Assembly (NCBI RefSeq): GCF_039538045.1
Contig: NZ_BAABBQ010000001.1
Coordinates: 2,723,872-2,787,871 of the forward strand
Length of the DNA stretch: 64,000 bases
Source: Sphingomonas swuensis
GTDB taxonomy: Bacteria > Pseudomonadota > Alphaproteobacteria > Sphingomonadales > Sphingomonadaceae
Direction: 5' to 3'
Part shown: positions 42,584 through 62,493 of the stretch, one piece after another
Numbering within the stretch: the stretch's first letter is position 1
How the letters are laid out: each line of letters begins with the position of its first letter
Notes under the pieces: model-generated
What the model saw: the letters and a program-made list of their open reading frames with translations, nothing else
Databases searched by the model: none
Told to the model about the DNA's origin: nothing
Translations under genes and position numbers: made by a program

Positions 42584-42764
42584 CCGACCCCTGTCTTCGT
42601 CCCGATCGCGGAATCATGCAGCGTTCCGATGCGATCAAACTCCCGCGATTGTCCATTGAGGCGACCGTGCTAAGCACAGCTGGCTCGGATTGAGGCGATA
42701 GGATTCGCTGCCGGGCGCATCGCGCGTGCGACGGGCGGCCTCCTGGCAAGAGGACACTCAGACG

Positions 42765-43589
42765 GTGCAAGAGTCTTGGACGAACGACGATAAGCCAGGA
42801 TCGGACGTGATAGAACCACTGCGCAAGCGCAAGGCTGGCAGTGGCGAGCTCTATACCCGGCCGAGCCAGATCGAGCAGATGCTCAAGATGCTCATCGCTC
42901 TCCCCGTCGAGGAAGCCCTCGCTAGAGCCCGAATCCGCAACCGCAAGTCTCCAGGCTGGCTTCCGGGCGAATGCGTCCTCCACATGACCCGCCGAGCCGC
43001 ACGCCTGCGTGACCGCCGTTCTTACGAGCGTTGGTATGAAATCCTCGCCGAACGAGTGCTGGCCGCCCTCCCGCGGCCATCGAACAAGGATCGGCCGGCC
43101 GCCCGCGAGCTGGAGATTGGCGAGACCGGATTTCACCGCTTCATCGAGATGCTGAGCGTGGATAGCAATGTTTATGACGATCGCCTCGACATCTGGGAAG
43201 CTCGCTTTGATCTCGCGCTGAAAAACTTGCGGCGGGATGCGCTGAGGAAGCTGCTTCCCGCCAAGGATGAGCCAGAGACCGTCGAGATCGGCGACGATCT
43301 CGTCCTCGCCCGGGAAGTCGAGGGCGCCCAGGGCGCATTCGACCCGTTCGACCCAGGACGGCTAAACGAGGAAGATTTCCGATCCCGGCTGTGGGACGCG
43401 ATTGACGCGCTGCCGAGAGAACAAAACAGGATTCTGACGATGATGGCAGAGGGCATACCCATCGGAACGGGTGCGCCGGGTGAGGAGTCGATTGCGACCC
43501 TGCTTGGCCTCCAACCGCGAACGATCAATAATCACAAGCGCCGCGCCTTCGAGACGCTGCGCCAGGCAATGGAAGGAGGTGAAGCATGA
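42765..43589 (+). CDS. sigma-70-family-like protein heading the island operon
   Basis: I favour GTG 42765, ten bases after AAGAGGA, over GTG 42726. The protein of about 274 residues is charged and helical. Its C-terminal 70 residues read as sigma region 4: DAIDALPREQNRILTMMAEG, then ESIATLLGLQPRTINNHKRR as the helix-turn-helix. A region-2-like stretch is the FHRFIEMLSVD...IWEARFDLALKNLRR part. It may direct transcription of the operon itself. Overlap with the next gene is ATGA. It could instead be a sigma-like DNA-binding regulator with no RNA polymerase contact. Confidence 0.7.
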   Translation: MQESWTNDDKPGSDVIEPLRKRKAGSGELYTRPSQIEQMLKMLIALPVEEALARARIRNRKSPGWLPGECVLHMTRRAARLRDRRSYERWYEILAERVLAALPRPSNKDRPAARELEIGETGFHRFIEMLSVDSNVYDDRLDIWEARFDLALKNLRRDALRKLLPAKDEPETVEIGDDLVLAREVEGAQGAFDPFDPGRLNEEDFRSRLWDAIDALPREQNRILTMMAEGIPIGTGAPGEESIATLLGLQPRTINNHKRRAFETLRQAMEGGEA

Positions 43590-44155
43590 GCCCGGGCGTA
43601 CGGCCGGAACTCGAGGATGTGCTCGAGGCGTTCATGCTCGATGCCGATGAGACGGGCGCGCTTGCGCGCTATCTCGGCGACTATCCCCAATACAAGGCCG
43701 AGCTTATCGACCTTGCCCATCAGATGGGAAGCACCGAGCCCGACGAGCTTCCGCCAATGGGAGATCCATGTCAGGCGGTGATCCGCAAAGGCTGGGAAAC
43801 ACTGAGCGCGGCCTGGCCCGGTATCGAGCGCAATCTCTTCGTGAGCCTGTCGCCGGCCGACTATGGGCGGGTGGCCAAGGAACTCAGCATTCCACTGCAG
43901 GTGCTGGCAGCGATCCGCGACGGCCGCGTCCTACTGGAGAGCATTCCGGCCGCCTTCATGCGCAGGCTCGCCGCGAGCCTGAACGGCAGCCTGGAGCAGC
44001 TTAGAGCCAGCTTTGGAGGCGAGCTTGCCGCGGCGCGGAGTTACAAGTCGGAACAGCGGCCAGAGACCTCGGCCCCGGTTAGTTTCGAGCAGCTCCTCAT
44101 CGCGGCGCGCGTCCCCGAGGTCGAGCGTGAACGCCTGCTCGCCGATGACCAATGA
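43586..44155 (+). CDS. hypothetical regulator, XRE-like HTH region
   Basis: A 189-residue soluble protein, coupled on both sides by ATGA overlaps. Its N-terminal part (ALARYLGDYPQYKAELIDLA) resembles the helical region found in partners of sigma-like genes, and the middle (VAKELSIPLQVLAAIRDGRV; FMRRLAASLNGSLEQL) looks like a divergent XRE-type helix-turn-helix. No firm family match. Because the next gene starts with an ImmA/IrrE-type protease domain, this could be the repressor that the protease cuts, as in ImmR/ImmA pairs; this is inference from order only. Confidence 0.65.
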   Translation: MSPGVRPELEDVLEAFMLDADETGALARYLGDYPQYKAELIDLAHQMGSTEPDELPPMGDPCQAVIRKGWETLSAAWPGIERNLFVSLSPADYGRVAKELSIPLQVLAAIRDGRVLLESIPAAFMRRLAASLNGSLEQLRASFGGELAAARSYKSEQRPETSAPVSFEQLLIAARVPEVERERLLADDQ

Positions 44156-47100
44156 TCGATTCCATCGAAGCCGCGCGGCGGCACGCGTCCGCGCTCCAAG
44201 AATCGGCATTGGCCTACGCGGTCGATGTGTGGAACCCGCTCGAGCATGTCCTGTGGCAGGTCGATCAGGCCGGGCTTGTCGCGGAACCGACGGACGCTGA
44301 GGCGAGCCAGCTTGACGGCGCGCTGGCCTGCTTCCTCCCCGATTTCAGGCTGATCCTCTATCGCGATGACGGGAGCACCTTCGACAAGGCATTCTTGATT
44401 GCGCACGAGCTTGGGCATGCACTGCTCGGCGATGCCGCAGGAAGCTGCGCCATCGATTTTGAACGAAGCGCGGAAGCGGCACCGATCGGCGAAGAACGAA
44501 TCATCGAGCATGGCCCGAAGCTTCGCCGGGAAATGCAGATGGATCTGTTCGCTCGCGAACTGCTGCTGCCAAGGCGATGGGTGAAGGCGCTTCACCTCGA
44601 CGAGAGGATGACGGCCGAAGATATCACCAACAAGCTCGGAGCACCGCGCTCCGCGGTTGTGCAGCAGTTGTTCGACGCGATGATGCTTCCCGAAATCGCG
44701 CCGCCGAAAGAAGGCGCCAAGCAGACCAAGCCGCTCAACGACGAGCAGCGCGATGCGGCGCGGCACCGCGGCGTCGCCTATCTGCTCGAGGCGGGACCGG
44801 GCACTGGCAAGACCCAGACGTTGACTGCGAGGGTGGCAGACTTGCTGGCAAGCGCGGTCGATCCCCGGAACATCCTCGTTCTCACCTTTTCCAACAAGGC
44901 TGCCGCCGAGATGTCCGAGCGCATTTCCGGCGCAAACAGCGACGCATTCGCGGCGATGTGGATCGGGACCTTTCATGCGTTCGGGCTCGACCTGCTGCGC
45001 GCGTTCGGCGATCGCCTCGGGCTGAGTCAGAATCCAGGCCTCCTCGACCGAACCGACGCGGTCGCCATGCTCGAGGACGAACTGCCGGGCCTAGGCCTAA
45101 CCCATTACCGCGACATCTACGATCCCACCGCAATCATCTCCGACATCCTCGCCGCCATTTCGCGGGCCAAGGACGAAGTCTGTGATGCCGAGACCTATAG
45201 GGCGCTCGCCGAGGCCATGCTGGGCAAGGCGCAGGCGCTTAGCGGTGACGAGCGCGACGCTGCGATCATCCGCGCCGAGGAGGCCCGCGAGGTCGCCATC
45301 GTCTATGCCCGCTATGAAGAGCTGAAGCGTGGGCGTAACCTCGTCGACTTCGGCGACCTCGTCATGCTGCCGGTGAAGCTGCTCGAAGCCCATGACGACG
45401 TCGCGAAACATTATCGCGACAAGTACACCCATGTCCTCGTCGACGAATATCAGGACGTCAATCGCAGCAGCGTCCGGCTCTTGAAGGCGCTCCGCCCGAC
45501 GGGCGAGGGCCTCTGGGTGGTCGGCGACGCCCGCCAGTCAATCTACCGCTTCCGCGGCGCCTCGTCGCACAACATCACGATGTTCGAAGCGGATTTCCCA
45601 GGGGCAATCACCGCCGACCTCGTGCTAAATTATCGCTCCAACGAGGAGATCGTTCAGCTTTACTCGGGCTTCGCCAAATCGATGTCGGGCGCCGGCGGCA
45701 AGCTCAAGGAGCTGGTTGCCGATCGCGGCCTTTCGGGGGAGCTTCCCGAGCTGCGCGTCGTTCACGACAAGCACTGCATCCCGCCCGCGATCGCTGATGC
45801 GATTGCGGAGCTGCGGGGATTGGGCCGCAGCTACCGCGATCATTGTGTGCTCGTGTCGGGCAACGACCGGCTGGCCGACATCGGGGCCGGCCTCGAGGCG
45901 CTCGGGATTCCGGTGCTCTACCTCGGAAGCCTGTTCGAGCGGCCCGAGATCAAGGAGCTGCTGAGCCTGTTATGGCTCGTCAGCGATCCGCGGGGCGTCG
46001 GCCTTGTCGGCACGGCATGCATGCCGGAATTTAAGATGACACTGGCCGAGGTCGACGCAGCGTTGTCGGCAACGGCGAACGCGGGCACAGACGGCCGCAC
46101 CTGGCGCGACCTTGGCGAGGACCAGGGAGCGCTAAGCGAGGTCGGACGGGCAACGATCCGCCTCTTGCGCGATGCGCTCAACGGCTTTGACCCTGCCGCG
46201 AGCCCGTGGCACATCCTCTCGGTCGTGCTGCTCGACCGGACGCGGATCGCGGCCCGCATCGCGGACTCGAAAGAGCCGCGGGACGTCTCGTCGGGCCTTG
46301 CCATCTGGCAGTTCATGAACTTCCTCCGCGCGCAGCCGCCGTCATGGCCTGCGGTGCCCAAGCTGCTTGCGAGAATTCGCCGCCTGTTGCGGCTCGCCGA
46401 CGAACGGGGTCTGAGGCATTTGCCGGCGGCCGCCTCGGGGATTGACGCGGTTCGCCTGATGACGATTCACGGCTCGAAAGGCCTCGAGTTTCCGGTCGTG
46501 CACCTGCCCGGATTGAATGCCGACACTATGCCCAAATATCCGCACATGAGCCGGCCGAAGTGCCCGCCGCCCGACGGCATGATAGCCGGCGCTTCCGGTT
46601 CGGCCGAAGACGAATTTCTGGTGAGCCACGATGAGGAGCAGGATTGCCTGTTCTACGTCGCTCTGTCGCGCGCCCGCGACCGCTTGCGCCTCTACTCCTG
46701 CAGTCACACGGCGCGGGGCACGCGCAAGGAATCGAGCTTCATCCCCAGGCTGGGGTCCGACGTCGTGCGGCTGGAGGTGAACCCGACGCGCGAGCTTCCC
46801 GAAGCGCCGAGCGCGCGGCGGGTTCCGATCACGTTCGAACCGGGCTGCTCGTGGGAGGCTTGGCACTTCGACACCTACGATGGGTGCCCGCGGCGGCTGC
46901 TCTATGAGCATATCCTCGGCGTGCGCGGAGCGACCGAGCGGACGCCCTACCGGCGCGTGCACGACGCCGTACGCAAGCTCTGCCAAAGCATCGCCGAAGC
47001 GGACGGCGTTCCCGACGATGCCGAGCTCGAGCGGCTTGCCCACGAAGCGTGCGATATCCCGGCTCTCGCGGAACACGGCTATTTCGACGACTTCAAACGC

Positions 47101-47562
47101 TTTGCGACGGCGATGGTGCAGTTCTTCGGTGACTCGCGGAGGGATCTCGAACCGGTCGAACCACAGTCGCTGTCGATCGAGTTCGGCGGCGATCGTGTCC
47201 TGGTGAAGCCGGACGACATCCTGCGCGGTGTCGACGGCCATGTTGTCCGCAACATTAGGACCGGGCACTTCAAGAAAAGCCATGTCGAAAAGAAGTTTAC
47301 CGCCCGGGCGCTGGTAATCGCCGCTCAGCAGGCCTTTCCCGGCTCGAAAGTGCAGGTGCTTCATCTCGCCGACGGCCTCGCGACCGACATTCCTTGCAAG
47401 AGCGGCCAAGAGGCGAAGGACCGGGCGAAGATGAGCTCGATGCTGGCGTCCATACGTGCCGGCGCATTCGAAGCGAAGCCAAGCGCCTTCACCTGCCCGG
47501 GCTGCTCCGCGTTGTTCGTCTGCGACGCGCTGCCCGAAGGCGCGCTCTCCAAGAAATTTTGA
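44152..47562 (+). CDS. ImmA/IrrE metallopeptidase - UvrD helicase - Cas4-like fusion protein
   Basis: An 1136-residue three-part fusion. Residues about 1-180 are an M78 ImmA/IrrE zinc peptidase with IAHELGHALLGD (His about 85 and 89, Glu 86) and the later LRREMQMDLFARELLLP helix. Residues about 190-880 are a UvrD/PcrA superfamily 1 helicase: Walker A EAGPGTGKTQT (about 214-224), TFSNKAAAEM, VLVDEYQDVN, GDARQSIYRFRGA, IHGSKGLEFPVV and VALSRARDRL. The C-terminal part has a cysteine in DGCPRRLLYE (about 917) and three in CPGCSALFVC (about 1113-1122), the Fe-S layout of AddB/Cas4 nucleases. The expected nuclease lysine motif reads VRNIRTG instead of DxKTG, so nuclease activity is doubtful. Confidence 0.9.
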   Translation: MIDSIEAARRHASALQESALAYAVDVWNPLEHVLWQVDQAGLVAEPTDAEASQLDGALACFLPDFRLILYRDDGSTFDKAFLIAHELGHALLGDAAGSCAIDFERSAEAAPIGEERIIEHGPKLRREMQMDLFARELLLPRRWVKALHLDERMTAEDITNKLGAPRSAVVQQLFDAMMLPEIAPPKEGAKQTKPLNDEQRDAARHRGVAYLLEAGPGTGKTQTLTARVADLLASAVDPRNILVLTFSNKAAAEMSERISGANSDAFAAMWIGTFHAFGLDLLRAFGDRLGLSQNPGLLDRTDAVAMLEDELPGLGLTHYRDIYDPTAIISDILAAISRAKDEVCDAETYRALAEAMLGKAQALSGDERDAAIIRAEEAREVAIVYARYEELKRGRNLVDFGDLVMLPVKLLEAHDDVAKHYRDKYTHVLVDEYQDVNRSSVRLLKALRPTGEGLWVVGDARQSIYRFRGASSHNITMFEADFPGAITADLVLNYRSNEEIVQLYSGFAKSMSGAGGKLKELVADRGLSGELPELRVVHDKHCIPPAIADAIAELRGLGRSYRDHCVLVSGNDRLADIGAGLEALGIPVLYLGSLFERPEIKELLSLLWLVSDPRGVGLVGTACMPEFKMTLAEVDAALSATANAGTDGRTWRDLGEDQGALSEVGRATIRLLRDALNGFDPAASPWHILSVVLLDRTRIAARIADSKEPRDVSSGLAIWQFMNFLRAQPPSWPAVPKLLARIRRLLRLADERGLRHLPAAASGIDAVRLMTIHGSKGLEFPVVHLPGLNADTMPKYPHMSRPKCPPPDGMIAGASGSAEDEFLVSHDEEQDCLFYVALSRARDRLRLYSCSHTARGTRKESSFIPRLGSDVVRLEVNPTRELPEAPSARRVPITFEPGCSWEAWHFDTYDGCPRRLLYEHILGVRGATERTPYRRVHDAVRKLCQSIAEADGVPDDAELERLAHEACDIPALAEHGYFDDFKRFATAMVQFFGDSRRDLEPVEPQSLSIEFGGDRVLVKPDDILRGVDGHVVRNIRTGHFKKSHVEKKFTARALVIAAQQAFPGSKVQVLHLADGLATDIPCKSGQEAKDRAKMSSMLASIRAGAFEAKPSAFTCPGCSALFVCDALPEGALSKKF

Positions 47563-47656: not shown

Positions 47657-47932
47657 ATGACTGAGCATCCAGAAAAAGGCGGCGGCCAGGACAATAAGTT
47701 CGAGGTCACCATTTCCTATGGTGGCATCAACAAGCCGCTCGAGATCAATCGCAACCAACAGGTCCAAGCCGTCTTCGCGCGGGCGATGGAGCTGTTCCAC
47801 CAGCCGGGCGGTGAGCTTGCCTTGTTCAACGGCGCCAACGAGGTGCCGCTGCACCAGAGCGTCGGCGACGCCGGGATCGTCGCCGGCAGTCTACTCCTGC
47901 TGCGCCCGCGCAACGTCGGCGGCGGCCGCTGA
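47657..47932 (+). CDS. ubiquitin-like beta-grasp modifier protein
   Basis: A 91-residue protein. After a flexible N terminus, residues about 14-86 fit a beta-grasp fold: FEVTISYGGINKPLEINRNQ, a helix VQAVFARAMELFHQ, ELALFNGANEVPLHQSV and a closing strand SLLLLRPRNVGGGR. The C-terminal Gly-Gly-Gly followed by one Arg is what a ubiquitin-like precursor would show before removal of the last residue. It is the first of three coupled genes (TGATG overlap with the JAB gene, then E1). It may belong to the bacterial ubiquitin-like family catalogued as DUF2604, which I cannot confirm. Confidence 0.85.
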   Translation: MTEHPEKGGGQDNKFEVTISYGGINKPLEINRNQQVQAVFARAMELFHQPGGELALFNGANEVPLHQSVGDAGIVAGSLLLLRPRNVGGGR

Positions 47933-48372
47933 TGCGCTACCGGCTGCCGCGGGACATCCTCGCCCAGACGTTCGACCTGTTCAGGACGTGCGGGCGGGGG
48001 CGGTGCGAGTGCCAGACACTGTGGGTCGGGCCCTGGTCCGACCCACAGCGGATCACCGAGGTCGTCCATCCGCTCCACAGTGCGTCCCCCGTCGGCTTCG
48101 ACGTGGACAGTGACTGGCTGAGCGAATTCTGGACCCGCTTGGCCAAGGAAGAGCTCGGAATCCGGGTCCAGTGCCACACCCATCCGGGCGCGGCCTACCA
48201 TAGCGCGACCGACGATGCGGTGCCGATCCTGAAGACACCGGGCTTCCTGAGCTTCGTCGTCCCGCGCTTCGCGACCGGCGCGATCGGCTTCGACGGCGCT
48301 TTCCTGGCCCGCGTGGATGACGCGGGCCGGTTCCGGGAAGTCCCCATCACCGACCATCTGGAGCTTGTATGA
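47932..48372 (+). CDS. JAB/JAMM family metalloprotease (deubiquitinase-like)
   Basis: A 146-residue single-domain JAB1/MPN protease. The JAMM zinc site is visible: catalytic Glu in RITEVVHPL (about 43), and CHTHPGAAYHSATDDA with His 82, His 84, Ser 91 and Asp 94 or 95. The spacing between the second His and the Ser is one residue shorter than the usual H-x-H-x7-S-x2-D. In related operons JAB enzymes trim the ubiquitin-like precursor and remove it from targets. It is translationally coupled to the ubiquitin-like gene before it and the E1 gene after it. Confidence 0.9.
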   Translation: MRYRLPRDILAQTFDLFRTCGRGRCECQTLWVGPWSDPQRITEVVHPLHSASPVGFDVDSDWLSEFWTRLAKEELGIRVQCHTHPGAAYHSATDDAVPILKTPGFLSFVVPRFATGAIGFDGAFLARVDDAGRFREVPITDHLELV

Positions 48373-49661
48373 CCAAGATCAACGCCCTCAACCGGACCTT
48401 TCTCCTGATGCGCTCCGACCTGAACGAGGGCGTGTCCGACGAACAGCTGCTCGAAGCGCTCTGCTCAACCCGCGTGCTCCTGGCAGCTGATCAGACGGTT
48501 CTCGCAACCCACTCAGGCCAGTCGGCCTTCATTGCCGCGGCGACGACCATGGCGCGTTCGGCGCACTCGGTTTGGCTTCAAGCGGACGACGTGCCTTTGC
48601 TCGGAGAGCAGCCGCCGCTGCAGGGCGCCACGATGCTCGAGGCTCTGCGTGAGACCGGCCGCGACCTGCTTCCGGACTGGTCGTTTGAGGAAGGCGACCC
48701 CAAAACGGCGGATATCGCGATCCTGTTCGGCGCTCCGCAAGTGACGGTCGAAGCCGGTCTCACGCTTCATGCCAATGCCACCGACTGGGCCTGTGAGGTG
48801 GGGGTGTCCCCGGACGGCGGTTGGCAGGGCGGAGACTGGCCGATGGGCGGCCTTGCCGTAGCGGCCATCGTTGCCGGCGAGGCGTTCAAGACCGCGATGC
48901 GCAAGCTTCGTGAGCATGCGCTCTCGCCGCCGCTGTTCGACGATCTTCATGCGCCGGTCAGCAAGGCCGGAATTGCGCTTGCCCCGCCGGACACGCCCAA
49001 GGTGTCAGACCTTGGCTCGTTCGACCTCGTCAGCGCGGGCGCGATTGGTAATGCCGCGCTCCACGTGCTGATGCGACTTCCAGGCATCTGCGGGATCTGC
49101 CGGGTGATCGACCATGACACGAGCGCGATCACCAACCTCAACCGCAACGCCTTGCTGCGCCGTTCGAGGCTCAACGATCCCAAGGTTGAGGATCTGGCGT
49201 CCTACGCCAACGGGCTTGCGATCGAGCCGGTGCCGCATCGCTATAAGGGCGAAGGCGAGCCGCCCATCGCGCTTGGCGATGTCGTCTTGGTCGGCGTCGA
49301 CCATATCCCGTCCCGCTGGGCGGTGCAGCGCGAAAACCCGTCCTGGCTCGGCATCGGCGGGACCGAGGGCACGTCCGTCCAATGCTCGTGGCACGAACCG
49401 GGACTGGCCTGCGCGCGCTGCGTCCACCCGTCCGACATCGAGCGCAGCGGTGACATCCCGACCACCGCCTTCGTGTCATACTGGGCGGGCCTGCTATTGG
49501 CCGCGGCATTCCTTCGATGCCGTGCTGGGGTGGCCCGGCCGATGAACGAGCAGGCCGCCTTCCTCTCAGCGCTTCGGCCGGAAAGCTGGGCCTATGCCTA
49601 TTCGCCGATCTTGCCGCTGCCCGATTGTCCCGAATGCGGAGGGGCGCGGCGCGCCGCCTGA
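48369..49661 (+). CDS. E1-like (ThiF family) adenylating enzyme
   Basis: A 430-residue protein whose second half is a ThiF/MoeB/E1 adenylation domain: nucleotide loop VSAGAIGNAALHVL (about 221-234), the VIDHDTSAITNLNRNALLRR strand with Asp and Arg (about 246-265), VGVDHIPSRW (about 308-317), and zinc pairs CARC (348-351) and CPEC (420-423). The first 200 residues look like a second, degenerate Rossmann domain (ALCSTRVLLAADQTVLATHS), recalling the inactive half of eukaryotic E1. Candidate catalytic cysteines include Cys 339. It should adenylate the GGG end of the modifier encoded two genes upstream. Confidence 0.88.
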   Translation: MTKINALNRTFLLMRSDLNEGVSDEQLLEALCSTRVLLAADQTVLATHSGQSAFIAAATTMARSAHSVWLQADDVPLLGEQPPLQGATMLEALRETGRDLLPDWSFEEGDPKTADIAILFGAPQVTVEAGLTLHANATDWACEVGVSPDGGWQGGDWPMGGLAVAAIVAGEAFKTAMRKLREHALSPPLFDDLHAPVSKAGIALAPPDTPKVSDLGSFDLVSAGAIGNAALHVLMRLPGICGICRVIDHDTSAITNLNRNALLRRSRLNDPKVEDLASYANGLAIEPVPHRYKGEGEPPIALGDVVLVGVDHIPSRWAVQRENPSWLGIGGTEGTSVQCSWHEPGLACARCVHPSDIERSGDIPTTAFVSYWAGLLLAAAFLRCRAGVARPMNEQAAFLSALRPESWAYAYSPILPLPDCPECGGARRAA

Positions 49662-49697: not shown

Positions 49698-51242
49698 ATG
49701 GACCTGATTGTCGTTGCAACCCTGGCGCTCGCGCTCATCGCCGTCGTGCTATGCGTCCTCATCCTCCTCAAAGTCGGCCGGCCCACCGCTTTGCCCGAGG
49801 AATTGAAGACAAGGATTGCGGTGCTCGAGCAGCTCGTAACCGGGCTTCCCGGCACCGTACGAGAGGAAGCGCGGGCCGGCCGCGAGGAACTGCGCGGCGC
49901 GGTCGGAGCGCAGACCGAAACCCTCGAAACGCGGTTCGTCGCGTTCGAGACGAGGCTCGGTGAATTCGGCAAGGCGCAGACCGAGCAGCTGACCGCGATG
50001 CGCTCCGAAGCATCGGACGGCCGGTCCAAGCTTGAAGACGCCGTGCAACGCAACGCCGACGGCTTTGCCAAGACCCAATCGGAGCGGCTCGCAGAAACGA
50101 TCGACGCGGTCCGCAGCCTCTCCGATCGGCTGCTGGCGTCGCAACGGGAAGGCCGGGACGAGCAGCGTTTGGCGCTCGAAGCCGTAGCCGGTAGGGTCGG
50201 CCAGCTCATCGATAGCAACGAGAAAAGGCAGGAAGCGCTTCGGGAGACCGTCGCAGGCGGACTGGAAACCCTACGTAACGACAATGCCGATAAGCTCGAG
50301 AAGATGCGGGCGACTGTCGAGGAGAAGCTCCAGGGGACACTTGAAAAGCGGCTCGGCGAATCCTTCCAACTCGTCAGCGACCGCCTCGAGCAAGTCCACA
50401 AGGGTCTCGGCGAAATGCAGAACCTCGCAACCGGTGTTGGGGATCTCAAGCGCGTGCTCAGCAATGTTAAGTCGCGCGGTGGATGGGGCGAGGTTCAGCT
50501 TGGGATGCTGCTCGAAGACATGCTCACCAAGGATCAATTTGCGACCAACGTTCGGATACGGCCTGATTCCGGAGAGGTGGTCGAATATGCTGTTAGGCTT
50601 CCTGGCCGAGGCGAGGATGACAAACCCTTATGGCTGCCGATCGATGCCAAGTTCCCGCACGAGGATTATGATCGGCTACTGCAGGCTCAAGATGGCGCGG
50701 TCGCGGAGGAGGTGGAGAAGGCGGCATTGGCGCTCGAGCGAGCCATCAGGCTTCAGGCAAAGACCATCTGCGAGAAATACGTACATCCGCCTTATTCAAC
50801 GGACTTCGCTATTATGTACCTTCCGACGGAAGGTCTGTTTGCTGAGGTAATTCGTCGGCCTGGTCTCGCCAACGAGCTTCAAACGAAGCATCGCGTCATG
50901 GTACAGGGGCCGACCACGCTCGCGGCTCTGTTGACCAGCCTCCAGATGGGATTCCGCACTCTCGCCATTGAGAAGCGATCGAGCGAGGTCTGGCAGGTTC
51001 TGGGTGCGGCTAAAGCCGAGTTTATGAAATATGGCCAGGTTTGGGAAAAGCTCGGTCGACAGCTCGACACTGCGAAGCGAACGGTTGATGAAGCAGGCCG
51101 TCGGACACGTGCAGTGACCAAGCGCCTCCGTGATGTTGAAACCCTGGACGGCACCGACGCGCCAGACTTGCTCGAGCTCGTCTCTCCAAACCCCGAGGCC
51201 GATGACCTTAATGAGGACGATCTCCAACACGCGGCCGAGTAA
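49698..51242 (+). CDS. rmuC: RmuC family DNA recombination protein
   Basis: A 514-residue protein with an N-terminal membrane helix (LIVVATLALALIAVVLCVLI), a long coiled coil (about 35-230) and the RmuC domain with SRGGWGEVQLGMLLEDML, LPIDAKFPHEDYDRLL, the PD-(D/E)XK-like core, and YLPTEGLFAEV. RmuC limits inversions and is thought to be a nuclease; in islands it is often carried with defence genes. It lies 36 bases after the E1 gene, probably in the same operon. From about 50440 on its codon use is less GC-biased than in its first half, which hints at a mosaic origin. Confidence 0.92.
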   Translation: MDLIVVATLALALIAVVLCVLILLKVGRPTALPEELKTRIAVLEQLVTGLPGTVREEARAGREELRGAVGAQTETLETRFVAFETRLGEFGKAQTEQLTAMRSEASDGRSKLEDAVQRNADGFAKTQSERLAETIDAVRSLSDRLLASQREGRDEQRLALEAVAGRVGQLIDSNEKRQEALRETVAGGLETLRNDNADKLEKMRATVEEKLQGTLEKRLGESFQLVSDRLEQVHKGLGEMQNLATGVGDLKRVLSNVKSRGGWGEVQLGMLLEDMLTKDQFATNVRIRPDSGEVVEYAVRLPGRGEDDKPLWLPIDAKFPHEDYDRLLQAQDGAVAEEVEKAALALERAIRLQAKTICEKYVHPPYSTDFAIMYLPTEGLFAEVIRRPGLANELQTKHRVMVQGPTTLAALLTSLQMGFRTLAIEKRSSEVWQVLGAAKAEFMKYGQVWEKLGRQLDTAKRTVDEAGRRTRAVTKRLRDVETLDGTDAPDLLELVSPNPEADDLNEDDLQHAAE

Positions 51243-51668: not shown

Positions 51669-54665
51669 GTGGCAAACGGTTGGCGTGGTGATCGGCTGCC
51701 TGAAATCGTCCGCTCGATGGCTTCACGCCCGCGGCACGAAGCGCTGCGAGGGCTGGTGACCGAACTGCTGCGCGAAGGTTTCGGAGCGGCTTTCAGCGAG
51801 CTCGAGCACGAACGCTACCTCGTCGACAATAGCGGCCGCATAGACGTGGCTTGGGGCGCTACCGTTATCGAGCTCAAGAGCGACCTTCGACGAGAAGAGC
51901 GCGACGTTGTCGCGAGAATGCCTGATTATCTGGCGGACGCAAGCCGACGAAGCGCACCTGGCCGCACGACCGTTGGCGTCGCGACGGACGGAGCAACGCT
52001 CCTTGCTTATACGCTCGATCACGACATGCTTACGCCAATCGGCCGCTACGAAGTGGAGGTCGATCATCCAGAACGGCTGCTGAGCTGGCTCGAGCCGCTG
52101 CTTGCGCCTGTTCCCGAGGTTATGCCGACGCCAATCGCCGTTGCGCTTACGTTCGGCCGACACAGCCTCGCCTTCGGACGCGCGCATGCGGAACTGCGGC
52201 GGTTATGGACGGAGGTCGGCGATCATCCCGAAGTGCGCCTGAAGCGCGACTTGTGGGAAGGATTGCTGCGCCAGGTCTATGGCGACGATGTTGGCAGCGA
52301 TACCCTGTTCCTCCAGCACACCTATTTGACAATCCTCGTGAAGGCGATCGCGGCGCGGGTGCTCGATCTCGCGGTGGATGATCCCGGTGAGATGTTGTCC
52401 GGCAGGCTGCTGGCCAATGCAGGCATTGTCGGGGCCGTCGAGGCTGATTTCTTCGACTGGCCTCTGCTCGCCGAGGGCGGTGCCGACCTGGTGCGCTCCC
52501 TGGCAGCGGAGACGGTGCGCTTCCGGCTGCGCGACGTCGAGGTGGACGTACTCAAGAGCCTGTACGAAAGTCTAATCGACCCGGAGGAGCGCCACGATTT
52601 AGGCGAATATTACACCCCCGATTGGCTGGCGGCTCGTGTGGTTGCTGCTGCAATCCCGCGCCCGCTTGAGCAGCGCGTCCTCGATCCTTCTTGCGGCTCG
52701 GGGACCTTCCTGTTCCACGCCCTCCGCCGCCTGATAGCAGCAGGTAGGGAGGCGCAGCTGGCGCCGGCCGAGATTGTTGCGGCTTGCGCTGAAAGCGTGT
52801 TCGGGATCGACGTGCACCCCGTTGCCGTCTCCCTAGCGCGCGTCACCTGGCTGCTCGCGCTGGGCGATGTGGTGCAGGATCGCCCGCCAGCACTCAGCGT
52901 GCCGGTGTACATGGGCGATTCGATGCAGTGGAGCCTACGCCCGCTCGGCGCATCGGCCGAAGTTCTGGTGGACGTGCCTCCGAACGATCCCCCGCTTCGC
53001 ATCCCCGCCGGTCTGGCGAGCGACCAGACTCTGTTTGAGCGCGCGCTGGACGAACTCAACCGTGGGCTTGACACGCTTGCCGAACCCGAAACGATTTGTG
53101 ACGCTATTGCCCGCGCAGGCGCCACTGACGAGGACGCGGCGTTACTCGGCCGCACCTTCGCGCAGCTCAAGCAGCTCTATCTCGACGGCCGCAACCACAT
53201 CTGGACTTTCGTCCTTCGCAATTTGCTGCGCCCCGTCTGGCTGTCGCATCCCGACCACCGTGCGGACGTGCTAATCGGTAATCCGCCGTGGATCGTCTAC
53301 CGCCATCTCAGCCCAGAGATGAAGGAGCGACTGCGCGAAGGGCTACAGAGCTACGGTCTTTGGATCGGTGGCAGTCTCGCCACTCAACAGGACATGTGTG
53401 CCCTATTCTGGGCGCGTGGGGCCGAGCGTTATTTGCGCGAAGGCGGCACGGTGGCGCTGGTCCTGCCGTATGCAGCGCTCAATGCTCCCGTCTTCGCCGC
53501 GATGCGCGACGGCAGCATGCAACGTGTGAAGGTCGCGATCACCGGCGGGTGGGGGCTGGAGCGCGTGTGGCCGATCTTCGGCGCGCAATCGGGCAGCAGC
53601 ACCACGAGCACCTGCGTGCTGTTCGGCGAACGCGATCGGGAGGGAGGTCCGCCCGAGCGGCTCGACCGTTGGGTTGGTGTCCTGCCCCGGCGCGACGCCA
53701 GCGAGGCCGAGGCGGCGGAAGTGCTCGAACATGCGAACGCTCGTTGGCCGCGTCCTCGTACGCTTTTGGCCGCCTCACCTTACCGCCGACGCTTTCGTAA
53801 TGGCGCAAGCCTGTTCCCGAGACGTTTCGTCCTAGTTGAGCATGTTGCAGCTGGACGTATTTTGAGCCGCCGCGACGCGCCGCAGCTCCGAGGGCGAGTT
53901 ACCAACTTAGATAAGCGGCCGTGGACAGGCGTCGAGCCTCCCGAAGGGCCGGTCGAAAGGGTGTTCGTCCGCCGGATTAGTTTGGGCGAATCCGTCGCGC
54001 CATACCGCATGCTCGACCTCGTGACCGGCGTTGTTCCAATGGAGGATGGTATCATCCTGACTTCGGCAGGCGCCGATGCGCACGGGCATCGCGGACTCGC
54101 GGCTTGGCTGCGTGACGCTGAGACGAAGTGGAACGAGCACAGCAACAAGGCCGCCGACGGCTCTCCGCGTGTATCGCTAACCCACTCTCTCAACCACCTA
54201 CAGAAACTAACAGCCCAGGCGGAGCGATCGCCGATCCGCATTCTCTACACGAAGGCCGGAACGCGGCTCAGCGCCTGTTGGCTTGAGGACGACGATGTCA
54301 TCGTCGATCACAAGGCTTACTGGTCGGCAGCGAACTCGCTGGAGGAAGCCGCCTATGTTGCGGCCGTTCTGAACACGAGCATCGTGCTCGATCGGGTCAG
54401 GGATCTCCAGCCTGTCGGTCAGCGCGATCCGCGTGACTTCGATAATCTGGTGTGGACGCTGCCGATCCCCGAATTCGATGCTAACGATTCGGTACACGCT
54501 GATCTCGCTGCGGCGGCGCTTCATGCCGCCGAGGTGGCCGCAGGGGTCGAGCTGCCCGAGAACGCGCATTTCACTACCAAGCGGCGCATGATCCGGCAGG
54601 CGCTGGAGGATGACGGCGCGGCGGAGATGATCGAGCGCCTTGTTGACGCACTGCTTCCTCTTTGA
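51669..54665 (+). CDS. single-chain restriction-modification enzyme (type IIG-like N6-adenine methylase with nuclease domain)
   Basis: A 998-residue protein with GTG start after GAGGGG. Near residues 55-70 there is a PD-(D/E)XK nuclease motif (GRIDVAWGATVIELKSD). The methylase domain begins with a helical region and has motif I VLDPSCGSGTFLFHAL (about 337-352), GIDVHPVAVSLARVTW and motif IV VLIGNPPWIVY (about 534-544), of the gamma N6-adenine type. The C-terminal 400 residues would hold target recognition. No separate specificity or restriction gene is near, so it probably both cuts and methylates, as type IIG enzymes do. A BREX/DISARM-type methylase is the alternative. Confidence 0.85.
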   Translation: MANGWRGDRLPEIVRSMASRPRHEALRGLVTELLREGFGAAFSELEHERYLVDNSGRIDVAWGATVIELKSDLRREERDVVARMPDYLADASRRSAPGRTTVGVATDGATLLAYTLDHDMLTPIGRYEVEVDHPERLLSWLEPLLAPVPEVMPTPIAVALTFGRHSLAFGRAHAELRRLWTEVGDHPEVRLKRDLWEGLLRQVYGDDVGSDTLFLQHTYLTILVKAIAARVLDLAVDDPGEMLSGRLLANAGIVGAVEADFFDWPLLAEGGADLVRSLAAETVRFRLRDVEVDVLKSLYESLIDPEERHDLGEYYTPDWLAARVVAAAIPRPLEQRVLDPSCGSGTFLFHALRRLIAAGREAQLAPAEIVAACAESVFGIDVHPVAVSLARVTWLLALGDVVQDRPPALSVPVYMGDSMQWSLRPLGASAEVLVDVPPNDPPLRIPAGLASDQTLFERALDELNRGLDTLAEPETICDAIARAGATDEDAALLGRTFAQLKQLYLDGRNHIWTFVLRNLLRPVWLSHPDHRADVLIGNPPWIVYRHLSPEMKERLREGLQSYGLWIGGSLATQQDMCALFWARGAERYLREGGTVALVLPYAALNAPVFAAMRDGSMQRVKVAITGGWGLERVWPIFGAQSGSSTTSTCVLFGERDREGGPPERLDRWVGVLPRRDASEAEAAEVLEHANARWPRPRTLLAASPYRRRFRNGASLFPRRFVLVEHVAAGRILSRRDAPQLRGRVTNLDKRPWTGVEPPEGPVERVFVRRISLGESVAPYRMLDLVTGVVPMEDGIILTSAGADAHGHRGLAAWLRDAETKWNEHSNKAADGSPRVSLTHSLNHLQKLTAQAERSPIRILYTKAGTRLSACWLEDDDVIVDHKAYWSAANSLEEAAYVAAVLNTSIVLDRVRDLQPVGQRDPRDFDNLVWTLPIPEFDANDSVHADLAAAALHAAEVAAGVELPENAHFTTKRRMIRQALEDDGAAEMIERLVDALLPL

Positions 54666-54810: not shown

Positions 54811-55434
54811 ATGTCTCCCAACATATCGGAAACGCATCGAGATCGAATCCTTGCACTGCTCGGACGGCAGAATGTCGCTCGGCTCTCAGAGATTCTGGCT
54901 ACCGGCGCTACAGCAACGGCCGTCTCGCGTCTCGAGCGCGACGGCTCAATCGTCCGTCTTAGCCGCGGACTGTACCAGCTCGCTGATAGCCCTCTTAGCG
55001 TGCACCAACCGCTTGTTGAAGTAGCCAAGCTGGTACCGAAGGGCGTGATCTGCCTCGTCTCCGCCCTCGCCTACCACGAGCTGACGGACCACATTCCGCG
55101 GCGCGTCTGGGTTGCCATCGGTCCGAAGGACTGGCGCCCTCACATCAGCTATCCCCCTATCCGCTTCGTTCGCTTCTCTCCGGAAGCGCTCCGCCATCAC
55201 GTCGATACGCACTCCGCCGAAGGAGCAGAAATCCGTATCACCAACCCGGCGCGAACGGTCGTCGACCTGTTCAAGTATCGGACGAAGGTGGGCCCGAACA
55301 TCGCGATCGAGGGCCTCAGGGAAGTGCTGCGGACCCGGAAAGCCACCCCCGCTGAAATCCACAACATCGCTGCTGAGATGAAGCAGTGGAAAGTCATCCA
55401 GCCCTATCTCGAGGCACTTACAATCAATGGCTAA
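54811..55434 (+). CDS. AbiEi-type antitoxin
   Basis: A 207-residue antitoxin of a type IV toxin-antitoxin pair. It has an N-terminal winged helix (LGRQNVARLSEILATGATAT; LSRGLYQLADSPLS) and the AbiEi C-terminal domain with SALAYHELTDHIPRRVWVAI and NPARTVVDLFKYRTKVG. AbiEi represses its own promoter and offsets the toxin. The next gene starts eight bases before its stop. The 145-base upstream gap contains no operator I can identify with confidence. Confidence 0.93.
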   Translation: MSPNISETHRDRILALLGRQNVARLSEILATGATATAVSRLERDGSIVRLSRGLYQLADSPLSVHQPLVEVAKLVPKGVICLVSALAYHELTDHIPRRVWVAIGPKDWRPHISYPPIRFVRFSPEALRHHVDTHSAEGAEIRITNPARTVVDLFKYRTKVGPNIAIEGLREVLRTRKATPAEIHNIAAEMKQWKVIQPYLEALTING

Positions 55435-56368
55435 AGACGTGAAAGATGTCGGCGCCTCCGTGCGCGCGCGCTTGCTCAACCTCGCGCGCAAGACGGGCCA
55501 GTCACACGATCTCCTTCTCACCCGCTACGCACTGGAACGACTGCTCTATCGTCTAACGCAGACGGAACACGCCGACTGGTTCGTACTCAAGGGCGCGATG
55601 CTGATGACGACTTGGTTCAACGATCCGCATCGACCGACACGCGACATCGACCTGCTCGGATTTGGCGATCCGCGACCCGAAGAAATGCTTCAGGTCTTCA
55701 AAGAGATCTGCAGCATTCCCGAGAATGACGGCGTCGAGTTCGATATCGAGAAGCTGGCGGTCACAGCCAATCGAGAAGATCTCGCCTACGGCGGCCTTCG
55801 TCTTCAGACCTATGCGGTCATCAGCGGCGCACGACTTCGCATCATCATCGACATCGGCTTCGGCGATTCTGTTGAACCGGGTGTAGAAGAGATGGAACTT
55901 CCGGTTCTGCTCGACCAGCCCCCGCCTCATCTGCGCGCTTATGCGCGAGAGACCGTCGTGGCTGAGAAATTCCAGGCCATGGTGATGATCGGCCAAGCCA
56001 ACACTCGGCTGAAGGACTATTACGATATGTGGCTGCTCGCCCGGAGTTATGACTTCGACTCAGATCGTCTCGCGGAAGCCATTGCGGCGACCTTCGCGCG
56101 TCGCGGCACTCCCATTCCGACGGACACGCCGGACGGCCTGAAGCCTACGTTTTACGAAGATCGCGCGAAGACCTCTCAGTGGCGCGCCTTTGTGGAGGAT
56201 GTTGCAGTTGACCCGGGGTCACTCGCGGAAGTCTCGGCGGTGCTCCTCGATTTCCTAATGCCGGCCGCCCGCGCTGCGAACTCTTTGGCCGTCGGCGGCG
56301 GCGACGGCGATGCCGTCGGCAAACCCGGCCGGCCGGCGGTCGGCGACGGCGAACGGCCGCCGGCGTAA
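55427..56368 (+). CDS. AbiEii-type nucleotidyltransferase toxin
   Basis: A 313-residue toxin of the AbiEii family, a minimal nucleotidyltransferase that can cause abortive infection. It has FVLKGAMLM, the metal-binding RPTRDIDLLG (Asp-x-Asp), ETVVAEKFQAMVMIG and RLKDYYDMWLLARSYDFD. The last 27 residues (from NSLAVGGGDGDAVG) are a low-complexity Gly/Pro tail encoded by GC-rich repeats, not the usual C terminus. It is coupled to the antitoxin by an eight-base overlap. Confidence 0.92.
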   Translation: MAKDVKDVGASVRARLLNLARKTGQSHDLLLTRYALERLLYRLTQTEHADWFVLKGAMLMTTWFNDPHRPTRDIDLLGFGDPRPEEMLQVFKEICSIPENDGVEFDIEKLAVTANREDLAYGGLRLQTYAVISGARLRIIIDIGFGDSVEPGVEEMELPVLLDQPPPHLRAYARETVVAEKFQAMVMIGQANTRLKDYYDMWLLARSYDFDSDRLAEAIAATFARRGTPIPTDTPDGLKPTFYEDRAKTSQWRAFVEDVAVDPGSLAEVSAVLLDFLMPAARAANSLAVGGGDGDAVGKPGRPAVGDGERPPA

Positions 56369-59372: not shown

Positions 59373-61481
59373 GTGAGCTTTTCCGCCGAAAAAAACTGGC
59401 CTGCGAAATACCGGCCGCGCAGTTTCGAAGATGTTGTCGGGCAAGCCGATGCCGTCGCGCGCCTTGGGGCGATGGTTCGAGCGCCCCGCCATCTCATCTT
59501 GGCCGGACCTAGCGGCGCCGGCAAAACCAGCCTTGGACTGGTTTTTGCTAAGGCTCTGATGTGCCAGACGCAGCGTCGTGGCCCGTCGCCATGCGGGTAT
59601 TGCGAGGCGTGTCAGACATTCGACCGGAGGCTGAACCCGAACTTCAACGAACGGTCTGGTCCAGAGCTCACCGTCGAGCAGGCCCGCGAGGTGATGAGCC
59701 AGACCAGTGGGTCACACATGTTCGCCGCGCGGCACGTCATTTTCATCGACGAGGCGCAGAGCCTGAAAGACGGTCCCATCAACGCTCTCCTCGGACCGAT
59801 GGAAGATGAACGCGCCGAGCGAACACTGATCTTTACGCTGATTGATCCTGGCGACCTCCCCGAGCCGCTCCGAACTCGGTGCCAGGAAGTACAGCTCGCC
59901 GCCCCGACGCTGAGCGATAAGCTGACATTCTTGAGCCGGATCACGACGACCGAGGGCGTGAGCGCCGATCACCTGGCGCTTGAGCTCATTGCGCTCTTCC
60001 GTACCGGCTTCCGCGGTTTGGCTAGAGATATGCAAGCCGTCGCTGAAATTGCGGCAGGCTCGAGGGTGGATCTCAATCTCGTGCGGAGCACGGTGCTGCG
60101 AGACAGGGCCGAGCGCGTCGTAGATTACTTAAAGGCGGTTTGCCGAAGCGACTGGGCTGGCCAGGAGTCGTCGCTCCAAGCGATGAACCTCGGCTCTGTC
60201 GAGAAACATCATGCGATCGTCGATGTCCTGATGCATCTGAAGCTGGGCTTCATCGGACCGACCAAGCAGCTGGATAGACGCTTCGAGCTCCTGCTGCCCG
60301 CGGCGGACTGCGTGCGATTGGTCGAACTTTTCGGCGAACGTGCGCGCGCGCACGGCCTGAGCTTGACCAGCCTCTTCGACGAGGTCCTGGAATTCTGGGC
60401 TTACATGCCGCTGCGGCTGGATGAGCGCTCGTTGCGCATTCAGCTCGTCCGCTTTCAGGATCTAATGAACCTCGAACGGTCCGAGCCTGTCGATGGCAAA
60501 GCGATCGCAGTCGCAGCGCTAGAGGCAGAGCAAGGCTACCGGTCCAGTGCTGCAGCCAGACGAAAGCCCAAGCACCGCACCGTGAAATCGGGGGTGCTCG
60601 ACCCTGAGGAGTATCTCTCCGAGGACCAGGCGCGCAGCTTGCACGAGGCCGGAAGCTTCTTAGTACAGAAGTACGGCGCTTATCTGAACTACCGACTGAC
60701 GCTTCGCTTGCCCGGAGGCGACACGGGCAAAGTATCGGCTTGGATCGGGGGTCTGGACAAGGATCTTCGGCGAGGGTTGGCGACGTGGGGCGGTGTTGAG
60801 GCCGAGCGAATGCAGCGGCTGGAGTTACACCGGATAAGCATCGTCGAGCGAGACCGCGACGGGTCTGCAACCGGGATCGCGCTATTTCATCTTCCGCACG
60901 AGGTGTACGCTAGAGCGAAACAGGCATTGAGTGACGGCGTCCGTCAGATCCAGACGGACGTTCCCGACGTGGATGCCGACATTATCGCTGATCCGCTGAC
61001 AGGCGATCGTGCCGTTACACAGCATTGGCGATTTGTGCGGGGGCTTTGGCGAGGAGTCGATCCCACGATCATCGCCGACGGACGGCCATTGATCGAGCGG
61101 CTTCGCATACCTCCAGCGCATCGCCGCCCGGCTGGAAGGCTGAACGGAGGCAAGCGCTTCAACATGTCGCAAAGTCTAGGAGGGACCGCTCGACGCGAGG
61201 AAGCGATCATCGGCCTTGCTGCTCTGTCAGCTTGGGGCGACGGGGCATGGGATTGGCTATTCTCGGGATGGGAGATGCGCGAGCACCTTGACCGGAAGAT
61301 AGAGGCAGGAAGGCGGCGCCAGGAGATGGCTGAGCTGGAGCGGCTTATGGAAGCTGCCCCCGACGCGCTTCACCGATCGGCAATCAACGCTCTGATCCGC
61401 AAGGCCATCGATACCCGGCCAGGCCCTCGTCGCCGTCCTCGGTCTCAGAAGCTCTGGCTTGATGAGGTCGAAAACGACTGA
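59373..61481 (+). CDS. DnaX-like AAA+ clamp-loader protein
   Basis: A 702-residue protein with GTG start. Residues about 1-240 match the DNA polymerase III gamma/tau core: KYRPRSFEDVVGQADAVARL, Walker A LAGPSGAGKTSLGLVFAKAL, the zinc-finger CGYCEACQTFDRRLNPNF, Walker B FIDEAQSLKDGPINALL and a TRCQEVQL sensor region. The remaining 450 residues are not like tau and I do not recognise them. A chromosomal dnaX must exist elsewhere, so this is an accessory clamp loader. It is divergent from the clamp-like gene (76-base shared promoter region). Confidence 0.85.
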   Translation: MSFSAEKNWPAKYRPRSFEDVVGQADAVARLGAMVRAPRHLILAGPSGAGKTSLGLVFAKALMCQTQRRGPSPCGYCEACQTFDRRLNPNFNERSGPELTVEQAREVMSQTSGSHMFAARHVIFIDEAQSLKDGPINALLGPMEDERAERTLIFTLIDPGDLPEPLRTRCQEVQLAAPTLSDKLTFLSRITTTEGVSADHLALELIALFRTGFRGLARDMQAVAEIAAGSRVDLNLVRSTVLRDRAERVVDYLKAVCRSDWAGQESSLQAMNLGSVEKHHAIVDVLMHLKLGFIGPTKQLDRRFELLLPAADCVRLVELFGERARAHGLSLTSLFDEVLEFWAYMPLRLDERSLRIQLVRFQDLMNLERSEPVDGKAIAVAALEAEQGYRSSAAARRKPKHRTVKSGVLDPEEYLSEDQARSLHEAGSFLVQKYGAYLNYRLTLRLPGGDTGKVSAWIGGLDKDLRRGLATWGGVEAERMQRLELHRISIVERDRDGSATGIALFHLPHEVYARAKQALSDGVRQIQTDVPDVDADIIADPLTGDRAVTQHWRFVRGLWRGVDPTIIADGRPLIERLRIPPAHRRPAGRLNGGKRFNMSQSLGGTARREEAIIGLAALSAWGDGAWDWLFSGWEMREHLDRKIEAGRRRQEMAELERLMEAAPDALHRSAINALIRKAIDTRPGPRRRPRSQKLWLDEVEND

Positions 61482-61565: not shown

Positions 61566-62483
61566 TCACGCAGCCAAATCATCAACGGGCTGTTGTGTTT
61601 GGGTTGTCGAAGCGCCTCCAGCAATCGCGCAGAGATAGTCGGCGGCCGCTTGCGCTTTGGATGCAACAGTGAGGATTGCACGAGCGTCATTCCTCAGCAC
61701 GCCAAGCCAAGACGAGATGTAGCGTGCATGGTCCGGCCGGGGCTCAACTGATAACCCGAGTTTGGCGCAGATGAAGGCGGCGCCCAGTTCAGCAACGAGC
61801 TCTTCAACGGCATAACTATCAGACCCAAAGCGACCAGTCAGATCCCGATTGAGTCGGCGTTCAGCGCCTGTCCAATGGATGTGCTCGTGCCCTAGAACAC
61901 TATAGAAGCCGCCGGCATCGCGGAACTGCTCGAAGTGCGGCACCGAGATCTTATCGGCGCTCGGCATGTAGAAGGCTCGGTCGCCGCCATAGGCTATGTC
62001 TGCGCCGCAGGCGCCGAAGAACGCCTCCGCCGATGCCACCCGCTCCTCTGCCGACAAGCCGCTGGCCGCAGTGGGCTCCAGAGCTCCGTCAACCTGGCTA
62101 GAATTGAAGACATGGAAGACACGGGAAACGAGGGCGGAGCGGCTTGTTCGCTGATCATCGTCATCATCATGATCGTCACGATTGCCGGAGGCTGACTTCC
62201 AAAACAGGATGGTCGACGCCTTCTCGTTCTTACGGACCTGAGCACCTGCAGCGGACCATTGGCGGTAAGTTGCCCAGCGGCCGGACGAATAGCCGCCGAG
62301 CTCGGCCGCGGCCCACAGCAACAAGGTATTCAAACCGCGATAGGACCGGCCGGTAATTGCGTTGATCGGTGCCCCTGTCCCCTCCCCCCATTTGTGCCAT
62401 GGCATGATGAAGTCCGCTGCACCGGCCTCAATGGATGAAATGATGTGGCGAGTGATGCGCTCATAAAGCTCATTGCTGCGCAT
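61566..62483 (-). CDS. ArdC family anti-restriction protein
   Basis: A 305-residue protein with the ArdC N-terminal domain (LYERITRHIISSIEAGAADF; PINAITGRSYRGLNTLLLW; WATYRQWSAAGAQVRKNEKA) and the zincin-like C-terminal domain with VLGHEHIHWTGAERRLNRDL, AVEELVAELGAAF and YISSWLGVL. ArdC protects incoming DNA from restriction during conjugation, which fits an integrative element. An acidic insert (RDDHDDDDDQRT) sits between the domains. It is convergent with the DnaX-like gene and follows the next gene by ten bases. Confidence 0.93.
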   Translation of the reverse strand: MRSNELYERITRHIISSIEAGAADFIMPWHKWGEGTGAPINAITGRSYRGLNTLLLWAAAELGGYSSGRWATYRQWSAAGAQVRKNEKASTILFWKSASGNRDDHDDDDDQRTSRSALVSRVFHVFNSSQVDGALEPTAASGLSAEERVASAEAFFGACGADIAYGGDRAFYMPSADKISVPHFEQFRDAGGFYSVLGHEHIHWTGAERRLNRDLTGRFGSDSYAVEELVAELGAAFICAKLGLSVEPRPDHARYISSWLGVLRNDARAILTVASKAQAAADYLCAIAGGASTTQTQQPVDDLAA

Positions 62484-62493
62484 GGCGTCGCCC

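Follow-up and report, generated by a model that had tools for sequence, protein, structure and literature searches.

How might a ubiquitin-like protein be attached to its targets by a locus that encodes an E1 enzyme and a protease, with no E2 next to them? This question is raised by a 64,000-nucleotide stretch of the Sphingomonas swuensis genome (hereafter, the window), in which three genes coupled through TGATG and ATGA overlaps (47657-49661) form a compact cassette. A first-pass annotation, made from the sequence alone, described it as a coupled beta-grasp/JAMM/E1 cassette, and all three components were indeed found:

47657..47932, + strand: ubiquitin-like modifier (UBL), 91 amino acids (aa), with the single residue R91 beyond the aligned diglycine
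47932..48372, + strand: JAB/JAMM protease, BilC-like, 146 aa
48369..49661, + strand: BilD-like E1 lacking the cysteine-bearing insert, 430 aa

We propose that this cassette belongs to a DNA-triggered, E2-less ubiquitin-like modification system that uses non-thioester chemistry, a proposal that we regard as evenly poised between right and wrong; conjugation, the DNA trigger and phage defense are the roles that we infer for it.

The window modifier, with its …NVGGGR tail, was identified as a beta-grasp protein; it consists of a single domain without a Multi_ubiq match, and its DUF2604 match falls just below the threshold (24.9 bits vs. a cut-off of 25). The closest profile and structure matches of the JAB protein are to BilC of the bacterial Bil system, and the catalytic Glu, HxH, S and D of a BilC-type JAMM protease are all present. 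Six residues (E26, H82, H84, S91, D94 and D95) are invariant in 11/11 aligned JAB sequences and are found also in the homolog from a Rhizobium plasmid (P0010 of locus L004), in which E26 aligns with the E33A position of BilC.

A survey of this gene order in other genomes, which the first-pass annotation had suggested as a check, was performed on one genome per species (84,980 species) using short exact patterns taken from a two-row JAB alignment. The scan yielded 10 loci, a lower bound given that only two short exact patterns were used; with the window and a conjugative plasmid of Rhizobium beringeri (L004), this makes 12 loci, all of which have the gene order UBL-JAB-E1 (L040 ends inside the E1 gene). 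Besides the window, the hosts are Sphingomonas (4), Novosphingobium, Caulobacter (2), Brevundimonas, a metagenome-assembled genome (MAG) of Afipia, an alphaproteobacterial MAG and the Rhizobium plasmid. Contig ends truncate two loci, L039 and L040, whose flanks are therefore only partly visible; L039 starts inside the UBL gene. No relative was found in a single-sequence E1 scan of the genome contigs, and there was no match in viral contigs with the JAB alignment or in phage records with the E1. Weak E1 matches (E-values from 1e-9 to 9e-4) in 30 of the 296 genomes of the order, besides the window's own, are confined to the ThiF core, and we left them out of the family. A stand-alone C-terminal piece of a window-type E1, apparently a relic, is present in another alphaproteobacterium (L035, 1456-1761), where the adjoining open reading frame (ORF) resembles mnmA by eye.

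The E1 protein is most similar to BilD (profile E-value 5.6e-14, compared to only 0.0018 for the E1-E2 profile) and its model aligns with BilD along the whole length, with both the inactive and the active adenylation halves. According to a review (PMC11354881), BilD possesses a Cys domain of about 80 aa that includes Cys417. The 70-residue insert that carries the cysteine in the control BilD (L058) is missing from all 11 complete E1s of the cassette family. Only three cysteine columns are common to these 11 proteins (C348, C351 and C420 in the window); all three are zinc-type by position and are present in BilD as well. In total, the E1s of L004, L038 and L039 contain four cysteines (zinc-type), and that of L044 contains three. 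All 10 aligned E1 sequences share N256, R259, K272 and D311. The adenylation residues of MoeB include Arg73, Lys86 and Asp130 (PMC12355090), with which we provisionally equate R259, K272 and D311 on the basis of the motif, an equation of our own. The stretch that flanks the missing BilD insert, I363-P364-T365, is likewise invariant (10/10 E1 rows) and is present in L004. Because the E1 family lacks the cysteine-bearing insert, an ordinary thioester cascade is unlikely for this cassette.

No E2 was detected in the 12 loci, with the flanks of L039 and L040 covered in part. The control Bil operon (L058) encodes a modifier, an E2, a JAB and an E1, and its E2 is recognized as Metal_CEHH in Pfam. 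This family (PF14455) has no match in the 11 genomes of the cassette family (the host of the Rhizobium plasmid excluded) vs. matches in both Bil controls (2/2), and PF14462 has no match in 10 of the 11. In a phmmer search with the L058 E2 against stop-to-stop frames of at least 40 aa from the 12 loci and both controls, the controls alone matched; a scan for CEHH-like motifs in 10 of the 12 loci produced two matches, neither on the cassette strand and one of them in a 60-aa frame, which we judged to be due to chance. The PADLOC BilB profile, negative in 10 genomes, also missed the real BilB in two genomes; it was dropped as evidence and PF14455 was used instead. PF14461 matched nowhere, the controls included, and counts for nothing. 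The first-pass claim that there is no separate E2 thus stands for the cassette, for which none was found in the 12 loci, but not for the genome, given that a second cassette of the window genome includes an E2-family gene. The absence of the E2 and that of the E1 insert coincide, as would be expected had the thioester relay been given up as a whole.

Immediately upstream of the cassette, the window contains three further genes:

42765..43589, + strand: SIG, sigma-70-region-4-like protein, 274 aa; opens the module; its start is uncertain, with the ORF beginning at 42726
43586..44155, + strand: HTH, 189 aa; helical/helix-turn-helix-like by eye only, putative M78-domain partner or substrate
44152..47562, + strand: HEL, M78 (ImmA/IrrE) peptidase-UvrD helicase-PDDEXK-type fusion, 1136 aa

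The M78 peptidase domain of HEL is identified by a profile match (Peptidase_M78, 1.4e-11), and the HExxH, GTGKT and DEYQD motifs are present in 13/13 aligned HEL homologs, in which the C-terminal cysteines are also kept. The SIG protein shows a weak match to Sigma70_r4_2 (6e-5, under the cut-off, as are the matches to other sigma families), and its homologs on plasmids are annotated as sigma-70 or response regulator. For the 189-aa HTH protein, there is no match in Pfam or the PDB; this protein and its homologs share a conserved C-terminal segment of the SYK..P type, possibly a peptidase recognition site.

SIG, HTH and HEL are located directly upstream of the cassette in 8 of the 12 loci (the window, L004, L036, L037, L038, L040, L041 and L042), and the link to a DNA helicase fusion made in the first-pass annotation is thus a recurrent one. 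The helicase gene is, in addition, the third gene of a three-gene module that is found also ahead of cassettes of the Bub type, which we take to consist of genes for multiubiquitin, ThiF with DUF6791 or JAB, and DUF6527 (row 6e in the scheme compared below). Homologs of SIG are present in 77 plasmid records and those of HTH in 74; in the eight plasmid regions that were opened among the matches to these queries, SIG, HTH and HEL follow in this order without exception. In seven of these regions (L060-L066; L061 identified by Pfam), the module is followed by multiubiquitin, ThiF and DUF6527 genes, and in the eighth (L067), by a multiubiquitin-E2_E fusion, a JAB-ThiF fusion and DUF6527; Pfam scans for DUF6791 on ThiF covered L004 and L061, with which the other six proteins align along their length. 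The window genome itself encodes a second SIG-HTH-HEL module (C1:886000-902000, L069), followed by multiubiquitin, Prok-E2_E, JAB-ThiF and DUF6527 genes. In L004 (784-11287), a multiubiquitin-ThiF(DUF6791)-DUF6527 set, for which the gene table shows no separate module, lies back to back with the window-type cassette, and in L045, genes for an HTH protein and an M78 peptidase adjoin the cassette instead of the module. In the Rhizobium plasmid region L064 (10366-13763), the HEL match is split over two frames, the gene being either broken or mis-sequenced.

In a 16-row tree of HEL, the rows of the JAB type do not group together, and the tree includes three label changes of which at least two are forced by starred branches, which makes repeated exchange of cassettes downstream of SIG-HTH-HEL probable. 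A single cassette swap was allowed by a 13-row tree, in which one branch separated the two cassette types, but is not upheld once three rows are added. The ratio of nonsynonymous to synonymous substitution rates (dN/dS), estimated for one species pair, Sphingomonas abaci vs. S. montanisoli, with Nei-Gojobori counts, is 0.086 for HEL, 0.131 for UBL, 0.138 for JAB and 0.142 for E1, which indicates that all four genes are kept.

Eight of the 12 loci encode a chimeric modifier, in which two multiubiquitin-like domains are combined with a last domain that resembles that of the window and ends in GG. The L004 modifier (P0009) contains two Multi_ubiq stretches by Pfam; its residues 12-181 are 41% identical to the multiubiquitin protein of the neighboring set, and its last domain is homologous to the window modifier (29% over 78 residues). 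All eight chimeric modifiers match that multiubiquitin protein at 37-48% (tblastn), and the multiubiquitin part of six modifiers compared with nine proteins shows 37-55% identity. The multiubiquitins beside the ThiF-DUF6527 sets (L004, L060-L066; n = 8) end in ..QS or ..KS, not GG. Only the window and L045 modifiers extend beyond the aligned diglycine, by one residue each (R and A, respectively); trimming by the JAB would be needed in just these two because the other 10 of the 12 already end in GG. Given that the JAMM residues are invariant, this distribution suggests that, where the modifier ends in GG, the JAB acts in deconjugation.

We propose a tentative scheme for the entire system. The M78-UvrD-PDDEXK protein would engage damaged or foreign DNA, whereupon the M78 peptidase would cut the 189-aa partner, by analogy with CapP/CapH, and the sigma-like protein, once released, would turn on the operon. 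Judging from the sequence, the JAB would remove the one residue beyond the diglycine of the modifier, and the BilD-like E1, in which the active-site residues are present, would adenylate the GG tail. Considering that there is no conserved catalytic cysteine in the E1 and that no E2 was found, the tail may pass from the acyl-adenylate straight to an amine or via an E1 hydroxyl, for which the invariant Thr365, in the region where the BilD insert is missing, is a candidate; the JAB may then reverse the modification. The two multiubiquitin-like domains, which the modifier possesses in 8 of the 12 loci and not in the window, may drive oligomerization. In its complete form, this scheme has a lone E1 attach the UBL directly from the acyl-adenylate or a threonine oxyester, without cysteine or E2, at the command of an M78-helicase DNA sensor wired to interchangeable cassettes; put so specifically, it is possible and somewhat more apt to prove wrong than right.

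Several observations weigh against the proposed system. The cassette is rare: among 372 genomes of the class, the JAB profile (E <= 1e-12) matched the window's own genome only, and among 385 genomes, the E1 (E <= 1e-10) matched the window's own genome and one fragment. The window E1 contains ten cysteines, six of them outside the zinc-type positions, and one of these is possibly a lineage-specific nucleophile, so that the argument from the lack of a catalytic cysteine rests on the family rather than on the window protein alone. With regard to the trigger, the D/E-x-K nuclease motif is unrecognizable by eye in all 13 HEL homologs and looks degenerate, the 189-aa partner lacks a recognizable HTH family, the sigma match is weak, and the fetched flanks of L043, L044 and L045 contain no SIG, HTH or HEL match, which implies that the module is not indispensable. 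Furthermore, profile searches leave room for an unrecognized E2 or a host E2-like protein.

An E2 that acts in trans, diverged or host-encoded, would turn the cassette into a conventional conjugation system, and such an E2 might come from the Prok-E2_E gene in the second cassette of the same genome or have been missed by profiles, as the real BilB was by the PADLOC model. However, the PF14462 and PF14455 results for the cassette family, the description of the E2/RWD domains of row 6e as lacking a cysteine (PMC1779556) and the fact that an E1 without the cysteine has no thioester to hand over make this arrangement improbable. We consider equally improbable that the cassette is a sulfur carrier system, in which a MoeB-like E1 would form the acyl-adenylate, a host sulfurtransferase would convert it to a thiocarboxylate and the JAB would release the product. 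The lack of the cysteine-bearing insert in the cassette E1 is compatible with such a role, MoeB and ThiF adenylate without promoting conjugation (PMC12687455), and rows 4a-4e of the Iyer 2006 survey pair ThiS/MoaD-like proteins with JABs, mostly together with an E1-like enzyme (PMC1779556). Nevertheless, the closest profiles and structures of the E1 and the JAB are BilD and BilC, no rhodanese domain or sulfur gene is present among the scanned window proteins, and in each of the eight plasmid regions opened, what follows the upstream module is a ubiquitin-like cassette.

Within the non-thioester proposal, transfer could involve an oxyester formed by an E1 hydroxyl, such as that of Thr365, rather than direct attack on the adenylate. 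This version draws on the invariance of I363-P364-T365 next to the missing BilD insert; given that sequence conservation is its basis and that the control BilD has I-P at the same place, we rate it slightly lower than the two preceding alternatives. The possibility that the cassette is a decayed, nonfunctional remnant of a Bil operon would account for the joint lack of the E2 and the Cys-bearing insert and for the stand-alone E1 fragment in L035, but appears highly improbable because the insert is missing from 11/11 complete E1s while the catalytic residues are invariant, and dN/dS for UBL, JAB and E1 is 0.13-0.14 in the one pair compared. The CBASS (cyclic oligonucleotide-based antiphage signaling system), sulfur-carrier and decayed-Bil readings all rank below an E2-less modification system.

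Downstream of the cassette, the window includes two neighboring genes:

49698..51242, + strand: RmuC-family protein, a neighbor only, directly after the E1; a second copy in the genome is at C1:1117690
51669..54665, + strand: type IIG-like restriction/methylase, an island neighbor outside the cassette

RmuC has no match in the 20 other related loci searched. Farther along the island are an AbiEi/AbiEii type IV toxin-antitoxin pair (54811-56368), a DNA polymerase III clamp-loader-like protein of 702 aa (59373-61481), and an ArdC-like anti-restriction protein with a PDDEXK_13 nuclease (61566-63558); the ArdC-like protein and the nuclease suggest a mobile element. A second UvrD-like helicase is encoded downstream of the E1 in L004, L036, L037, L038, L039 and L041, and as a same-strand pair in L060 and L065; the protein beside it is named as PD-(D/E)XK in L004, L060 and L065 and looks similar by eye in the others. 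No such helicase is seen after the window E1. Scanning 42.4-51.7 kb for promoters and terminators gave no useful information.

If the proposal is correct, the modifier, E1 and protease would come close to the simplest equipment for ligating a ubiquitin-like protein, and conjugation would be possible without a thioester relay, which bears on the origin of ubiquitin chemistry. The cassette chemistry is testable with three small proteins. Moreover, a single upstream module, probably a DNA-responsive switch, stands ahead of three different ubiquitin-like cassettes, twice in one genome, and this shared module offers a natural comparison of what the cassettes do and what switches them on.

How does the cassette compare with known systems? 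By its components, it is outside Bil, Bub and type II CBASS, in line with the first-pass view of a layout unlike Bil and type II CBASS. With type II CBASS, it shares an E1 and a JAB in one operon (Cap2/Cap3), but among the proteins scanned (41.5-63.6 kb) there is no E1-E2 fusion of the Cap2 type and, as anticipated in the first-pass annotation, no CD-NTase (0 family matches). The likeness to MoeB and ThiF consists in adenylation residues without a large cysteine-bearing insert; those, however, are homodimeric sulfur-carrier enzymes, whereas here a fused two-half E1 is accompanied by a JAB. The Bub pathway, too, reportedly departs from thioester chemistry, as Ye is said to have described in 2026. 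The cassette JAB and E1 differ from the Bub (row 6e) proteins in being Bil-type and unfused, DUF6527 and DUF6791 are found neither in the window proteins nor in L004 P0009-P0011, and the window modifier is single-domain with a GG tail, not a multiubiquitin. What the two share is a multiubiquitin stretch in the modifiers of eight loci and the SIG-HTH-HEL module upstream of the sets opened, an association found here and not, as far as we know, a published defining feature of Bub.

The upstream module resembles the CapH+CapP pair, CapP being presumably an M78 peptidase, in that an M78-type peptidase (HExxH) and a small partner precede an immune-type operon; the difference is that here the peptidase is joined to UvrD-PDDEXK in one protein and accompanied by a sigma-like protein. 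Single-stranded DNA activates CapP, a protease of immune operons whose cleavage target is the repressor CapH; CapW or CapH+CapP adjoin 219 of 544 Bub operons (PMC13373217).

Within the literature covered, which leaves the central Bil and Bub papers outside and makes novelty provisional, there is no account of the E2-less three-gene layout or of its link to SIG-HTH-HEL. In the available sections of the Iyer 2006 survey (PMC1779556), none of the rows 6a-6e combines a ubiquitin-like protein, a separate JAB and an E1 minus an E2; the comment to row 6c mentions E1s with another domain replacing the E2, and rows 4a-4e set their ThiS/MoaD-like protein, JAB and, mostly, E1 beside rhodanese domains or sulfur-metabolism genes. 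Row 6d contains a ubiquitin-like protein, JAB, E1 and E2, a content that we ourselves equate with Bil, and row 6e contains polyUbl, E2/RWD, JAB-E1 and a metal-binding protein. The cassette shares with Bil the modifier-JAB-E1 order seen in L058 and homologs of BilC and BilD, and differs from it in having neither the BilB E2 (CEHH) nor the 70-residue E1 insert with the cysteine, and in two features that are each found in 8 of the 12 loci, the upstream module and a modifier with multiubiquitin-like domains. Rows 6d and 6e resemble the two parents of this cassette.
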